DNA from: Acidobacteriota bacterium
GTDB lineage: Bacteria > Acidobacteriota > Terriglobia > Terriglobales > Acidobacteriaceae
Assembly: GCA_013289685.1 (NCBI GenBank)
Contig: JABCZL010000003.1
Coordinates: forward strand, 124,001-188,000
DNA: 64,000 nucleotides
Direction: 5' to 3'
The translations under genes were made by a program, and so were the position numbers. The notes under the pieces are model-generated. The model was not told the origin of the DNA, did no database searches, and saw only the letters and a program-made list of their open reading frames with translations. This document shows positions 3,620-57,261 of the stretch, one piece after another. Each line of letters opens with the position of its first letter. Position 1 is the stretch's first letter.

Positions 3620-4504
3620 ATGGCTCGTGGTGTAACTCCGCGCCAGCCCGCCCGCACCGGCCGTCAGGACAAAGTTCGTGCGAGCACCGTCACTCGTGTG
3701 GGAACGGGCACTCGTGGAGGGACGGGCGCCCTCGCACGTCCAAGCCGAGGCAAAGCCTCGGCAGCAGCCCCGAAAGCGCGCAAGAATGCAAAAGGAAAAT
3801 CCGAGGCCGACCCCAAAATCAAGGGCTACAACCCCGTGGCTCCCGAGCGAGTGGCGGAAATTCTGCGCCGTCTCGACCAACTGTACCCCGAGGTCACCTG
3901 CGCCTTGACGCACGCGAGCGCGTGGGAGTTGCTAGTGGCAACGATCCTTTCAGCGCAATCCACCGACGCGAACGTGAACCGGGTTACGCCCGAATTGTTC
4001 CGCAAATATCCGACGGTCGAGGCCTTTGCCGCACTCACTCCGGAACAACTGGAGCCGGACGTGCGGTCCACCGGATTCTTCCGCAATAAATCGAAGTCGG
4101 TGGTGGGCGCGGCGAAAAAGATCATCGCGGACTTCGGCGGGCACGTCCCGGACGAAATGGACAAGCTGCTGACTCTACCAGGCGTCGCGCGCAAAACTGC
4201 GAATGTTGTCTTGGGATCGTGGTTCAAGAAGGCCGAAGGTGTGGTGGTCGATACGCACGTGCACCGCATCTCGCGGCGGCTGGAACTCACCACCGAGAAT
4301 GATCCGCAGAAGATCGAGCAGGATCTGATGAAGATCATCCCACGCGAGAAGTGGATACTGTTCTCGCACCAGATCATCTGGCACGGGCGCAAGTTGTGCA
4401 TCGCGCGCAAGCCCAAGTGCGCGGATTGTGCGCTGGAGAACATTTGTCACGCTGCGGATAAAACCTGGAGCACGGTCGAATTGCACAAGAACGCCAAAGC
4501 GTGA
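3620..4504 (+). CDS. nth: Endonuclease III (DNA glycosylase / AP lyase)
   Basis: Base-excision repair enzyme that removes oxidised pyrimidines and cuts at abasic sites. The core (about residues 70-285) has the helix-hairpin-helix LPGVARKTANVVL with catalytic Lys192, the catalytic Asp211 in VVDTHVHR, and the iron-sulphur loop Cys260-x6-Cys267-x2-Cys270-x5-Cys276. An AAGGAG site eight bases before the ATG supports this start. The protein is unusually long (294 residues against about 210-220). The first 68 residues are Arg/Lys/Ala/Gly-rich, of low complexity, and partly encoded by a palindrome at 3744-3762. They may be a disordered DNA-binding tail. Confidence 0.95.
   Translation: MARGVTPRQPARTGRQDKVRASTVTRVGTGTRGGTGALARPSRGKASAAAPKARKNAKGKSEADPKIKGYNPVAPERVAEILRRLDQLYPEVTCALTHASAWELLVATILSAQSTDANVNRVTPELFRKYPTVEAFAALTPEQLEPDVRSTGFFRNKSKSVVGAAKKIIADFGGHVPDEMDKLLTLPGVARKTANVVLGSWFKKAEGVVVDTHVHRISRRLELTTENDPQKIEQDLMKIIPREKWILFSHQIIWHGRKLCIARKPKCADCALENICHAADKTWSTVELHKNAKA
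3744..3762. repeat. Perfect mini-hairpin inside the nth leader region
   Basis: GCCGAGGC, loop AAA, GCCTCGGC: a perfect 8-base stem translated within the N-terminal extension of endonuclease III. The preceding GGAGGGACGGGCGCCCTCGC looks like the GGGACGGGCGCC repeats found between genes elsewhere here. Confidence 0.6.
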
Positions 4505-9690: not shown

Positions 9691-9715
9691 GCGGACGAGA
9701 GTGTCCGCCCCACAC
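9691..9715. repeat. GCGGAC...GTGTCCGC palindrome, copy 1
   Basis: GCGGACGAGAGTGTCCGC followed by CCCACAC. Two more copies, differing at only two to four bases, are at 22741-22765 and inside anmK at 33864-33888. The core GCGGAC/GTCCGC is a perfect 6-base palindrome. This copy lies between paiB and hemD. Confidence 0.8.
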
Positions 9716-16009: not shown

Positions 16010-16073
16010 AACCACAGAGGGCACAGAGGTATACAGTGGGCTTCCTCGGTGCGCCTCTGTGTCCTCTGTGGTT
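16010..16073. repeat. CCACAGAGG hairpin family, copy 2
   Basis: Arms of 20 bases at 16010-16029 and 16054-16073 pair with one mismatch around a 24-base spacer. It lies just past the end of the GH5-like gene and could serve as that gene's transcription end point. Confidence 0.8.
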
Positions 16074-16090
16074 CACGCTTTTGCTGGCGC

Positions 16091-22740: not shown

Positions 22741-22765
22741 GCGGACAGGAGTGTCCGCTCCACAT
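22741..22765. repeat. GCGGAC...GTGTCCGC palindrome, copy 2
   Basis: GCGGACAGGAGTGTCCGC followed by TCCACAT, nearly the same 25 bases as at 9691 and inside anmK. This copy is intergenic. Confidence 0.8.
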
Positions 22766-28543: not shown

Positions 28544-28587
28544 GATGTCGTCTCAGTGCAGGCAAACCCCTGCCAGACTTTGCCCGG

Positions 28588-28612
28588 CGGAGGGGCGAAG
28601 GCGCCCGTCCCT
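28588..28612. repeat. GGAGGGGCGAAGGCGCCCGTCCCTACAT repeat
   Basis: GGGGCGAAGGCGCCCGTCCC is an imperfect palindrome followed by TACAT. It resembles the GGGCGGCYGTCCCCACAT ends at 30456 (inside mutS) and 57243. Confidence 0.6.
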
Positions 28613-28630
28613 ACATAAACCTGCCCCAGC

Positions 28631-29831: not shown

Positions 29832-32534
29832 ATGACCGAGCCGTCCACTCCGCTGATGCGGCAGTATGCCGCGGTCAAAAAAGAACATCCTACCGCGCTC
29901 TTGTTTTTTCGCCTGGGCGATTTCTACGAGCTTTTCTTTGACGATGCGATCGTGGCGGCGAAAGAACTGCAGATCACCCTGACCTCGCGGAATAAAGAAA
30001 AAGGAATCGCAGTGCCCATGTGCGGCGTGCCTTATCACGCGGCGGAGGGATATATCGGGAAGCTGATTCGCAAGGGCTTTAAGGTGGCAATCTGCGAGCA
30101 AATGGAAACCCCAAGCCAGGCGAAGAAACTTGTTCGGCGGGAAGTGACCCGCGTGATGACGCCGGGGACGGCGGCGGATTCGTCGTTGGGGTCAGATGAG
30201 AATAATTTCCTGGCGGCGCTGGCGCAGGTGACCGATCGCACGGGAGAAAATCGAGTGGGATTCGCCGCGCTCGACTTGTCGACGGGGGAATTCCGGGCTA
30301 CGGAATTTTCGGGCGAGGGCGCGATGCGGCGGGTGCAGGAGGAGTTGGAGCAGTTGCGGCCGAAGGAATTGCTGTATGGATCGGCGGCGCCGTTGTTTGA
30401 GAGTGCGGTCGCTCCCAGCAAAGAGCAGCCGAGCTTTGCTCGGCCGGACAGCCGAGGGCGGCCGTCCCCACATGGTTCTTCTCTGAGGACAGCCACCGGA
30501 ACCTGCACCGAGACTCCGCTCGATGACTGGATTTTTGCGCCGGATCATGCGCTGCCGCTGCTGGAGAATCATTTTGGCGTTTTGTCGCTGGAGGGATTTG
30601 GGCTGGCGGGGCGGACGGCGGCTGCGGCAGCCGCGGGCGCGATTCTGTATTACGTGCGGTCGACGCAGCGGGGGTCGCTGGATCATGTCGACCGCATCGG
30701 GTGGTACGAGCGGCAGAGTTGTCTGGTGCTGGATGCGGTGACGGTTCGTAATCTGGAATTGATTGAGCCGCTGTTTGCGGGCACGGATGCGGGCGTTACG
30801 TTATTCCGGTCGATGGATGCCGCGGTCACGCCCATGGGCAAGCGGCTTCTGCGGGCCTGGCTGTTGCGGCCGTCGCTCGATTTGAGCGAGATCCATGCGA
30901 GGCTCGACGCCGTGGAAGCGGGAGTGAAAGAGAGCATCGCGCGGGAGGAGTTGCGGCGGGCTCTCGATGGCGTGCTGGATCTCGAAAGGCTGTTGAGCCG
31001 GGTGACGCTGGAGACAGCGAATCCCCGGGACCTGCTGGCGCTGGCCGCGTCGCTGGGAAAGATTCCGGCGGTCAGAGCGGCGGTAGGCCGGCTCGCGGCT
31101 GAGCGACTGAAGACTCTGCATGGCTCGCTCGACGAACTGGGCGACGTGCGGGAACGAATTGAGCACACCATCGTTTCGGAACCGCCTTTGAGTTTTGCCG
31201 AGGGCGGAGTGGTTGCAGCGGGCGTGGATCGCGACCTTGACGAATTGCGGGAACTCTCGCGCAACAGCAAGCAGGTGCTGGCGCAGATTGAGCAGCGGGA
31301 GCGGGGGCGCACCGGGATTTCCTCGCTGAAGGTAAAGTTCAATTCCGTCTTCGGCTATTACATTGAGGTCTCGAAACCGAACCTGCACCTGGTTCCGCAG
31401 GATTATGAACGGAAGCAGACGCTGGTTGGTGCGGAGCGGTTCAGCACGCCTGAGTTGAAAGAGTACGAGATCAAGATTCTTGACGCGCAGGAAAAAATTG
31501 TCGAGATCGAGCGGGGGCTGTTTACGGAGTTGCGGACGGAGATCGCGGCGGAGGCTAAGCGGATCCGGCAGACTGCGCTGGCGCTGGCGGAGGTGGATGT
31601 GCTCGGGTCCCTGGCGCACATCGCGGCACTGCGCAATTATTGCCGTCCGGCTTTCGTGGAGTCTGCCGACGCGGCCGAGTTGGAGATTATCGAAGGCCGG
31701 CATCCTGTGATCGAGCAGCAGGAAATGGCGGGAGGCAGCGAGCGCTTCGTCCCGAACGATCTTTATTTGAATGGCACCACGCACAACATTATGCTGCTGA
31801 CCGGGCCGAATATGGGCGGGAAATCGACTTACCTCCGGCAGACGGCGCTGATCGTAATTCTGGCGCAAATGGGATCGTTCGTACCCGCACGGTCGGCGCG
31901 GCTGAGCGTGGTGGATCGTGTGTTCACGCGCATTGGGGCGAGCGACAATCTGGCACGCGGACGATCGACCTTCATGGTGGAGATGACGGAGACGGCGGCG
32001 ATCCTGCACACGGCGACAGCGCGGTCGCTCATTTTATTAGATGAGGTAGGCCGCGGCACTTCCACCTATGACGGGTTGGCGATTGCATGGGCTGCGGTGG
32101 AATATCTCCACGCGCGAGTCCGGGCGAAGACTTTGTTTGCCACGCACTATTTTGAGTTAACCGAACTCGCCGAGCAATTGTCGGGCGTGAAGAATTATCA
32201 CGTGTCGGTGAAGGAGACGGGTGGCGGGATTGTGTTCTTGCGGAAAGTCGAGCCAGGGGCGGCGGATCGCAGTTACGGCATCGAAGTGGCGAAGTTGGCG
32301 GGACTGCCGAACGAAGTCGTGGTGCGGGCGCGGGAGGTGCTGGCGGAACACGAATTTGCGGAAGCGCAGGCGACGGCACATCTTTCTCCGGGGGCGACTC
32401 CTCCGCCCACGCAGTTGACGATTTTTACGCCGCTGTCGCAGCCTGTGCTGGAGAAGCTGCGGGAAGTGGATTTGAACCGGATTACTCCGTTAGAAGCTTT
32501 GAATTTGCTGGCGGAGTTGAAGAAAGAAATCTAA
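29832..32534 (+). CDS. mutS: DNA mismatch repair protein MutS
   Basis: Recognises mismatches and starts repair. The mismatch-binding Phe-x-Glu motif is Phe31-Tyr32-Glu33 (LGDFYELFF). The Walker A motif is GPNMGGKST (658-666), with [14 protein letters not shown] and [12 protein letters not shown] behind it. At 900 residues it is slightly long because about residues 191-228 in the connector domain are encoded by a palindromic repeat inserted in frame ([20 protein letters not shown]). The core before ([13 protein letters not shown]) and after ([15 protein letters not shown]) is normal, so the element lies in a loop. The TAA stop lies in a CCACAGAGG repeat. A short tandem repeat carries the ribosome site. 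Confidence 0.97.
30419..30476. repeat. Palindromic repeat translated within mutS
   Basis: The unit runs AAAGAGC, a perfect GCCGAGC-TTT-GCTCGGC hairpin (30428-30444), a spacer, and GGGCGGCCGTCCCCACATG. The same plan occurs at 57187-57261, outside any gene (AAAGAGC, GTCGAGC-TGC-GCTCGAC, ..., GGGCGGCTGTCCCCACATG). An in-frame length lets it be translated. Confidence 0.8.
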
Positions 32535-32579: not shown

Positions 32580-33704
32580 ATGATGGACCGACGCAAGGCT
32601 CGGAGTATTGACGAGATTGGACAACTGCTGATCGTGGGCTTTGACGGCGCAGAGATTACGCCGCAGGTCAGTTCCCTGCTTAAGCGGCTGCAGCCGGCTG
32701 GGGTGATTCTTTTCGCGCGGAATATCAAGAATCCGGAACAGACCTGGCGGTTGCTCCGCGATAGTCAGAAGTGCGTGGCCACGCCGCTGTTCGCCTGCGT
32801 TGATCTGGAGGGCGGGACGGTGGACCGGTTTCGCGATGTGCTTGGGGCCGCGCCTTCGGCGGCGGATGTATTCGTGACTGGCGATCGCAAGCTGTTTCGC
32901 AGGCACGGGGAAATCATCGGCGCAAACTGCCGCGCGCTGGGATTTAACGTCGATTTCGCGCCGGTGCTCGATCTGGCATTCGAGGCGTCACGAAGCGTCA
33001 TGGGGACGCGAGCGGTGGCGGCTGATCCGCGCGAGACGATCACTTACGCGAGGGAGTTTTTGGCGGGGCTTCAGGATGAACGCGTGCTGGGATGCGGCAA
33101 GCACTTTCCTGGTCTCGGCGAGGGCCAACTCGACAGCCATCACCAGCTGCCGGTGATTGAAAAGCCGTTGCAGAGGCTGTGGGCGGAAGACCTGCTTCCC
33201 TACCGGACGCTGCGCCGGCAATTGCCGATGGTGATGATTTCGCATGCGGCGTATCCGCAGGTCACGCGGGATCGAACTCCGGCGTCGCTGTCGAAGGTGT
33301 GGATCACCGACATTCTGCGCAAGAAGATTGGCTACCGTAATCTGATCGTATCGGACGATCTGGAGATGGGCGGCGTGCTGGCGGCTGCGCCGGTCGGCGA
33401 GGCGGGGGTGGACTTTGTGCGGGCGGGAGGCGATTTGTGCCTGATCTGCCATCGGGAGGAATACATTCTTCAGGCGTACGAGGCGCTGCGCAAGACGGCG
33501 GAGCGGGATTCGAAGTTTGCGCGGCGTGTGGCGGAGGCGACGCGGCGTGTGCTGGCGTTTAAGAAAAAACTGGCGAGCAGGAGTACCCGCGGCCCGTCCG
33601 GAGCCACGGTGGAGAAGTTGACGCGGAGGTTGTGGGAGTTTGGGGAGCAAGTAAGGTTGGAGCCTTTCAGCCGTCAGGCGGACAAGCGGCGGTCGCGATC
33701 ATGA
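32580..33704 (+). CDS. nagZ: Beta-N-acetylhexosaminidase NagZ (GH3)
   Basis: Removes N-acetylglucosamine from anhydro-muropeptides in peptidoglycan recycling, normally in the cytoplasm. The family motifs are VDLEGGTVDRFR, GFNVDFAPVLD, GKHFPGLGEGQLDSH with the catalytic Asp185-His187 pair, and the nucleophile in IVSDDLEMGG (Asp259-260). The usual HG in KHFPGHG is LG here. The C-terminal tail past residue 330 is Arg/Lys-rich and probably disordered. Two ATG codons stand together at the start. The stop overlaps the anmK start by ATGA, so the two recycle murein in one operon. Confidence 0.93.
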   Translation: MMDRRKARSIDEIGQLLIVGFDGAEITPQVSSLLKRLQPAGVILFARNIKNPEQTWRLLRDSQKCVATPLFACVDLEGGTVDRFRDVLGAAPSAADVFVTGDRKLFRRHGEIIGANCRALGFNVDFAPVLDLAFEASRSVMGTRAVAADPRETITYAREFLAGLQDERVLGCGKHFPGLGEGQLDSHHQLPVIEKPLQRLWAEDLLPYRTLRRQLPMVMISHAAYPQVTRDRTPASLSKVWITDILRKKIGYRNLIVSDDLEMGGVLAAAPVGEAGVDFVRAGGDLCLICHREEYILQAYEALRKTAERDSKFARRVAEATRRVLAFKKKLASRSTRGPSGATVEKLTRRLWEFGEQVRLEPFSRQADKRRSRS

Positions 33705-34960
33705 GCGCGAAGGCAATGATCGTGGCCGGGGTGATGAGCGGGACCTCGGCGGATGGGATTAATGTCGCGCTGGTGCGAGTGGGCGAGGCGCGCTCTCGCT
33801 CTCGTAAGGCGTCCGCCGCGTCTTCGAGCTTCCGCGAGAAGTCACCTTACACTGCACACATTAGCGGACGGGAGTGTCCGCTCCACACGATCAAACTCTT
33901 GGGACATGCGGAATATTCCTATCCTGCCAAGGTCCGCGCCGCGGTGCTTTCCGCGATGAACGCGACTCGGGCCAGCGTGGCCGAGTTGTCGCGGCTTAAC
34001 TTTTTGCTGGGCGAACTTTACGCCGACGCGGTGCTGGCGACGGAGCGGCAGTTTCGGGTGAAGGCTGAATTGGTCGGCTGCCATGGGCAGACTTTGTACC
34101 ATCAGGGCGAGGCGCAGACATTTCTGGGACAAAGAATTGCCGCGACCTGGCAGTCGGGCGAGGCCGCCGTGATTGCGGCGCGGGTGGGCGTGCCTGTGGT
34201 TTCGGATTTTCGTCCTGCGGATATGGCGGCGGGTGGCAAGGGGGCGCCGCTGGTTCCATATCTTGACTATCTGCTTTTCCGTGACCCGAAGATCGGACGC
34301 ATTGTGCAGAATATTGGAGGCATTGCGAATCTCACGGCGATTCCCGCGGGGGCCGACGCGAGCCGCGTGTTCGCCTTCGATACCGGACCGGGGAACATGG
34401 TGATCGACGCGGTAACCGAGGCTATGTATGGCCGGGCGTTTGATCGCGGTGGGAAGATCGGCGCATCGGGAAAGGTCTTGCCGTCCGTTCTTGACACGAT
34501 GCTGCGGCGCGGCTTCTTCAAGGCGAAACCTCCGAAGACCGCCGGGCGCGAGGAATTCGGGCGGGAATTTGTGGGCGAGTTCTTGCGGCAATGCCGCGGC
34601 GCCCGTAAACAAGATGTTGTCGCGACGGCCACCGCCCTGACGGCGCGGTCGATCGCCGACGCGGTGCAGCGATTCGTCATCCAGAAATCAAGCTCAGCTG
34701 CTAAGACTTCTTTTCGCGAAATGATTCTCTCCGGAGGCGGCGCCAGAAATGCGACTCTTGTCGGCATGCTGGCGGAGAGCCTCGCACCGCTTGGGATCCA
34801 GTTGCGATTCTCGGACGAGTTTGGCTTGCCTTCGGAGGCGAAAGAAGCAGTGGCGTTTGCCGTGCTGGCTTACGAGACATGGAATCGAAGGGCTTCGAAT
34901 GTGCCATCGGCGACGGGCGCGAAACGGGCGGCCGTGCTGGGGAAGATTTCGTATGTGTGA
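33701..34960 (+). CDS. anmK: Anhydro-N-acetylmuramic acid kinase, with in-frame repeat insert
   Basis: Phosphorylates anhydroMurNAc with water cleavage to give MurNAc-6-phosphate, the step after NagZ. Motifs are MSGTSADGI (ATP-binding), GCHGQTLYH, SDFRPADMAAGGKGAPLVP with catalytic Asp169, NIGGIANLT and DTGPGNMVID. The start at 33701 is fixed by the 4-base overlap with nagZ. Between VALVRV and LLGHAEY there is an extra stretch of about 40 residues, rich in Arg and Ser. Its end (HISGRECPLHTI) is encoded by a dispersed GCGGAC palindrome. The core is otherwise intact, so the enzyme is probably active. Confidence 0.95.
   Translation: MSAKAMIVAGVMSGTSADGINVALVRVGEARSRSRKASAASSSFREKSPYTAHISGRECPLHTIKLLGHAEYSYPAKVRAAVLSAMNATRASVAELSRLNFLLGELYADAVLATERQFRVKAELVGCHGQTLYHQGEAQTFLGQRIAATWQSGEAAVIAARVGVPVVSDFRPADMAAGGKGAPLVPYLDYLLFRDPKIGRIVQNIGGIANLTAIPAGADASRVFAFDTGPGNMVIDAVTEAMYGRAFDRGGKIGASGKVLPSVLDTMLRRGFFKAKPPKTAGREEFGREFVGEFLRQCRGARKQDVVATATALTARSIADAVQRFVIQKSSSAAKTSFREMILSGGGARNATLVGMLAESLAPLGIQLRFSDEFGLPSEAKEAVAFAVLAYETWNRRASNVPSATGAKRAAVLGKISYV
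33864..33888. repeat. GCGGAC...GTGTCCGC palindrome inside anmK, copy 3
   Basis: GCGGACGGGAGTGTCCGC followed by TCCACAC, nearly identical to the intergenic copies at 9691 and 22741, but translated here in frame as part of AnmK. Confidence 0.85.
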
Positions 34961-57150: not shown

Positions 57151-57186
57151 CTTTTCCGCCATACGTCTTCCTCTCGGCACTCCGGT

Positions 57187-57261
57187 AAAAGAGCTGTCGA
57201 GCTGCGCTCGACCCTTCGGCCTTGCTCAGGGCAAGCTAGCCGGGGCGGCTGTCCCCACATG
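57187..57261. repeat. Intergenic copy of the element translated in mutS
   Basis: AAAGAGC, a perfect GTCGAGC-TGC-GCTCGAC hairpin (57196-57212), CAGGGCAAGCTAGCC and GGGCGGCTGTCCCCACATG. The plan equals 30419-30476. This copy is untranslated, between CHAD and ppx. Confidence 0.75.

Follow-up and report, generated by a model that had tools for sequence, protein, structure and literature searches.

The mutS gene in the stretch of soil-bacterium DNA analysed here (the window, 64,000 nucleotides) contains an in-frame copy of a genus-specific REP family, translated as part of a connector-domain loop that is predicted to be disordered or flexible. The reading we favour, to which we give a probability of about 70%, is that this loop is a tolerant site that has been repeatedly re-occupied or converted by copies of the family, that the insert is near-neutral and that the family is mobilized in trans by a Y1 transposase. 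REPs inside repair genes have been known since 2013 (PMC3733652), but repeated turnover at one repair-gene site was not. The empty, single, nested and decayed sites found across about 30 species form a clean natural series of how a selfish hairpin repeat turns into part of an essential protein machinery, and they make it possible to test for neutral, adaptive or targeted insertion.

The repeat copy inside mutS

The mutS ORF is intact and all five MutS domains are present (Table 1), which agrees with the claim of an earlier note on this DNA that a palindromic repeat is translated inside a conserved repair gene. The perfect hairpin described there is also present (hairpin 1), whereas the remaining part of the repeat is a second hairpin, which the earlier reader had overlooked. 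This second hairpin has a single stem mismatch (A30450/C30463), and the GTGG tag directly abuts its stem. The earlier estimate that about 38 residues (191–228) derive from the repeat was too long, since this span takes in an older linker that is also present in unoccupied relatives; the match to the covariance model is roughly half of that.

The loop has a pLDDT below 50 in the AlphaFold model and lies between strands 179–183 and 226–230 of the connector domain; E. coli MutS has about 29 residues fewer here. Between species, the second codon positions of the MutS core are about 95% identical and the third positions about 50%, a pattern that shows strong purifying selection on MutS itself and speaks against a broken repair gene.

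Table 1. Features of the mutS locus and further copies of the repeat family in the window
Feature	Position	Strand	Basis
mutS, 900 aa, intact ORF	29832–32534	+	ORF; Pfam MutS_I, II, III, IV and V
Host linker of the repeat, connector-domain loop, MutS residues 191–223	30402–30500	+	AlphaFold model
Whole repeat copy inside mutS, about residues 195–215 (about 20 residues)	30415–30474	+	Covariance model R1, 71.6 bits, E 2.2e-16
Leader AAAGAGC, purine-rich, weakly conserved among copies	30420–30426	+	Column counts, 129 copies
Hairpin 1 (variable stem), GCCGAGC-TTT-GCTCGGC, perfect	30428–30444	+	Sequence; helix covaries across 129 copies
Hairpin 2 (REP core), GGACAGCCG-AGGG-CGGCCGTCC, 9-bp stem, 4-nt loop	30446–30467	+	Sequence and covariation
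Tail CCACATG after hairpin 2	30468–30474	+	Sequence
GTGG tag at the foot of hairpin 2, read as CCAC on the + strand; a GT[AG]G tetranucleotide as in canonical REPs	30468–30471	-	Tag counts, 129 copies; definition in PMC6006769
Intergenic copy with nested repeat CCCTTCGGC..GCTCAGGGCAAGC	57183–57261	+	R1, 24.5 bits, E 0.01; exact 19-base tail
Further copy	28559–28617	+	R1, 40.2 bits, E 5.8e-8
Further, more divergent copy	3713–3774	-	R1, 34.5 bits, E 2.1e-6

A genus-specific REP family

The window has two occurrences of GGGCGGCYGTCCCCACATG, where 0.05 would be expected by chance, and a search of the genome with GGCGGCYGTCCCCACATG gave 116 near matches to the repeat tail against a single one for the reversed control. 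The earlier note had proposed a genome-wide count as a check; scoring of 150 candidates with the covariance model gave at least 138 copies of a two-hairpin unit of about 60 nt, a number to be read as a floor, and of these 83 are intergenic, 23 lie at gene edges and 32 lie inside predicted genes. The intergenic unit at 57187, said earlier to share the architecture of the MutS repeat, belongs to the same family, and its low score is explained by the other repeat nested in it, an insert of about 24 nt. A third repeat (CCCTTCGGCnnCGCTCAGGGCAGGC and its reverse) was seen to nest inside the REP unit in this copy and at the QueA and MutS loci of several species; it often lengthens the unit by about 24 nt, a number divisible by three, and nesting inside genes therefore leaves the frame intact.

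The family was found in all 37 genomes of the SbA1-like Acidobacteriota genus that were searched, with 15 to more than 90 matches each, while 24 genomes of other families gave 0–2 weak matches each. Across these genomes, it is therefore confined to the genus and essentially absent elsewhere.

Both hairpins covary strongly. Across 129 aligned copies, 204 two-sided changes were counted against 50 in shuffles; none of the 500 shuffles reached as high a value, and the signal collapsed in slid controls. The tetranucleotide at the foot, read on the opposite strand, is GTGG in 82 copies and GTAG in 32, together 114 of 129 (88%). Canonical REPs have GTAG or GTGG 0–2 nt 5' of the hairpin foot, a basal stem of 7–20 bp, a loop of 2–5 nt and at least three G/C among the first four stem bases (PMC6006769). 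The consensus stem here has 9 bp (GGACAGCCG/CGGCTGTCC), its loop has 4 nt and its first four bases are GGAC, and the many copies are dispersed and mostly intergenic. Because tag, stem and loop all agree with the published rules, the family is a GT[AG]G-tagged REP, carrying an additional hairpin that differs in sequence between copies, and not an element of the CGTC-tagged Rickettsia type.

Copies inside genes

With about 80% coding density, the presence of 32 of the 138 copies inside genes indicates that genes are avoided but not spared, the gene calls being approximate ones from a home-made codon-model gene finder run on stretches of the genome. After 10 of the 32 were dropped for a weak upstream coding signal, an N-terminal position or a lack of Pfam support, the curated set comprised 22 copies inside 21 conserved genes, with all six reading frames in use; in the consensus unit, all six are free of stop codons. 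The genes are those for aconitase, GyrA, an M28 peptidase, Lhr, a DCC1-like protein, UvrC, QueA, MutS, a molybdopterin-binding dehydrogenase, UvrD (two sites), SelA, RecG, a zinc dehydrogenase, MutS2, an oligopeptide ABC ATPase, a glutamyl-Q tRNA synthetase-like protein, a DUF1385 protein, a laccase-like Cu-oxidase_4 protein, a hydantoinase, LpxB and a molybdopterin oxidoreductase.

Repair and topology genes make up 7 of the 21 (MutS, UvrC, UvrD, RecG, MutS2, GyrA and Lhr) compared with 3 (UvrB, LigA and LexA) among 50 genes sampled with weighting by length (Fisher p 0.0055). This excess is suggestive only, as the control genes lie close to REPs and linkers are more numerous in long multi-domain proteins. 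The same bias has been described for other REP families, with intragenic copies in uvrABCD, recBCD, DNA polymerase I and dnaE2; mutS is not named in the passages of that paper dealing with them (Di Nocera et al. 2013, PMC3733652). The present data add mutS, recG and gyrA to the genes of the 2013 observation, carry it over to an acidobacterial genus and set a control sample beside it.

The tag differs with location: GTGG is found in 20 of the 22 curated intragenic copies and GTAG in none, while intergenic copies have 49 GTGG to 25 GTAG (p 0.001). Avoidance of stops alone seems too weak a cause, since GTAG yields a stop in only one of six frames. Within UvrC, the linker at residues ~290–370 looks like a mosaic of several translated repeat families (HVGTAAPGRPGEQSS, CHPERSEG and PSARQERGPQDD), one that differs in nearly every species of the genus.

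Relation to known elements

GTAG-tagged REPs (REP/RAYT; PMC3733652) share with the present family the short hairpin, the GT[AG]G foot, the many dispersed copies, subfamilies with alternative complementary stems, and a mostly intergenic distribution with some in-frame genic copies, many of them in repair genes. The family described here differs in being new and restricted to one acidobacterial genus, in a foot that is mostly GTGG, in a unit that includes a second hairpin of variable sequence, in host genes that include mutS, mutS2, recG, gyrA and lhr, and in occupancy that changes at the same site across many species; for it, the search described below found no dedicated transposase.

The earlier note had likened the MutS repeat to the palindromic elements of Rickettsia. 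The likeness stands as far as an in-frame coding palindrome is concerned: RPE-1, RPE-4 and RPE-6 are palindromes translated in frame in conserved genes whose function they do not abolish (Ogata et al. 2000 and 2002, as cited in PMC6649704 and PMC3733652), and the curated copies lie likewise in frame inside conserved, Pfam-supported protein genes. It fails for the type of element, since RPE-4 and RPE-6 are of the CGTC-tagged kind and the family here has GTGG or GTAG at the foot in place of a CGTC end. Rickettsia elements are also described, in the accounts cited, as losing repeat identity over time, whereas compensatory changes keep the stems paired here. The coding palindromes described from nematomorph mitochondria (PMC6649704) resemble the present copies in being perfectly paired inverted repeats within coding sequence that are gained and lost between species, but they are long, unrelated single repeats in mitochondrial genes and not one dispersed bacterial family.

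The MutS site across species

Whether relatives lack MutS residues 191–228, as the earlier note had proposed to check, depends on the distance. Other acidobacterial families have a short linker without the unit, but the genus itself contains both occupied and unoccupied species, the latter with a linker of 18–19 residues. About eleven species of the genus, early-branching ones included, share both the unit and its frame; in others, a related unit is read in another frame (G004, G016 and G011) or nested repeats are present, and three (G006, G008 and G032) have decayed units. When occupancy is placed on a MutS tree from which the linker was excluded, it is scattered and at least 6–8 changes are needed, the deep branches being weak. 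The queA site shows a comparable range: it is empty in G004, among others (10 codons between the anchors), and holds a single unit in G016, one nested repeat in G000 and G063 and two in G019, while the unit of G001 keeps the frame but has a different, compensated stem. At the MutS, UvrD and QueA sites alike, species differ in the version of the unit, by compensated stems, frames or nested repeats, or hold none.

Among seven species in which it is well preserved, the MutS element is 71–96% identical, against 39–53% at the four-fold sites of MutS, and its differences at codon positions 1, 2 and 3 amount to 7, 22 and 21%, so that they are not concentrated at position 3. These two results together mean that neither an old neutral insert nor selection at the protein level explains the element, and the codon-position counts rule out protein-level conservation of the insert. 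Compensatory changes of stem pairs were found inside mutS and at the second uvrD site. Genomes with more copies of the family have better-preserved copies in MutS (mismatches to consensus against genomic copy number, Spearman -0.83, p 0.003, 10 species, relatedness ignored). A search for a CGACAGCC..GGCTGTCG subfamily specific to the species that carry it in MutS found none, copies being few everywhere.

Origin of the insert

As the element is conserved beyond four-fold sites, lacks the pattern of protein selection and has compensated stems, the site seems to have been repeatedly re-occupied or converted. The linkers of MutS, UvrD and QueA may thus be tolerant landing sites that the REP enters again and again, either inserting anew or converting the site from copies elsewhere in the genome. 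Genic copies survive where the frame is kept and the position is in a loop or linker, and the insert would decay once the family is being lost. Most likely the translated peptide extends a disordered loop with a near-neutral effect and leaves MutS functional. A Y1 (RAYT-type) transposase probably mobilizes the family in trans, although the loci surveyed below contained no matching one. Counting against re-occupation, the clear MutS copies all have the same orientation and most share one frame, a pattern equally compatible with one old insertion that was later homogenized or held by selection on the hairpin. A stronger proposal, which we put forward tentatively and regard as possible though doubtful, is that certain disordered linkers of repair enzymes are specific, repeatedly used REP targets rewritten at the DNA level, with orientation and frame unchanged and with new compensated stems; if true, MutS, UvrD and UvrC would be receiving part of their protein sequence from a mobile palindrome on a continuing basis.

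Constancy of orientation and frame in about eleven species, early-branching ones included, together with the recurrence of a 14-residue peptide, could also be taken to mean that the unit entered once, in the ancestor of the genus, and was kept because the encoded peptide was useful to MutS. This is quite improbable: third positions of the element differ by 21% where those of the MutS core differ by 42–55%, second positions differ as often as third, and the segment is absent in many species and read from another frame in three. One old insertion could also have been held by selection on the DNA or RNA hairpin, for instance for a structural or regulatory role, with compensatory point mutations; in its favour are the compensated stems in mutS and uvrD and the restriction of hairpin decay to species in which the family is rare. 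We nevertheless consider it unlikely, because the alternative stems match subfamilies elsewhere in the genome, as replacement predicts, because unoccupied sites are too common for an essential role, and because nested repeats disrupt the units.

It has been proposed that REPs inside repair genes are adaptive in that they weaken repair and create mutators (PMC3733652), and the excess of repair and topology genes reported above points in that direction. The proposal is highly improbable, as the MutS insert lies in a disordered loop of a protein under strong purifying selection and the excess may reflect the sampling and the linker-rich proteins already mentioned. Draft assemblies in many contigs, with several records of the genus labelled as metagenome assemblies, raise the suspicion of an assembly artefact or a chance similarity; the copy number, the single hit of the reversed-pattern control and the occupancy of the same site in a dozen separately assembled species refute it, leaving it a negligible chance.

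Candidate transposases and other repeats

Thirty-three Y1 loci were examined, with well over a hundred more Y1 hits in the genus, and none of the 33 had a transposase closely flanked on both sides by the MutS-type REP. At locus L344, a strong copy and a weak one were found at a distance of about 1.3 kb. As partners of the MutS-type REP, the Y1 transposases of the source genome itself showed no linkage among the loci tested. Different GTAG REPs flank some of the remaining Y1 genes of the genus. One Y1 transposase gene of the source genome (L142, contig C20 near 43506) is flanked on both sides by GTAGCGCCGGCGTCCCGCCGGC, and GTAGCCCGGCGTTTCAACGCCGGG lies near the transposase at L346, L355 and L344; these are separate REP families with their own candidate transposases.

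The window also contains a second GTGG-tagged REP family, GTGGAGCGGACA-CTCC-TGTCCGCT, at 33864–33886, 22741–22763 and 9691–9713 (all on the - strand), the first of these copies being in frame inside the anmK ORF (33632–34960). An inverted repeat of 39–41 nt, AACCACAGAGGACACGGAGG, forms a near-palindrome at 698–783 and occurs once more at 16042–16082.
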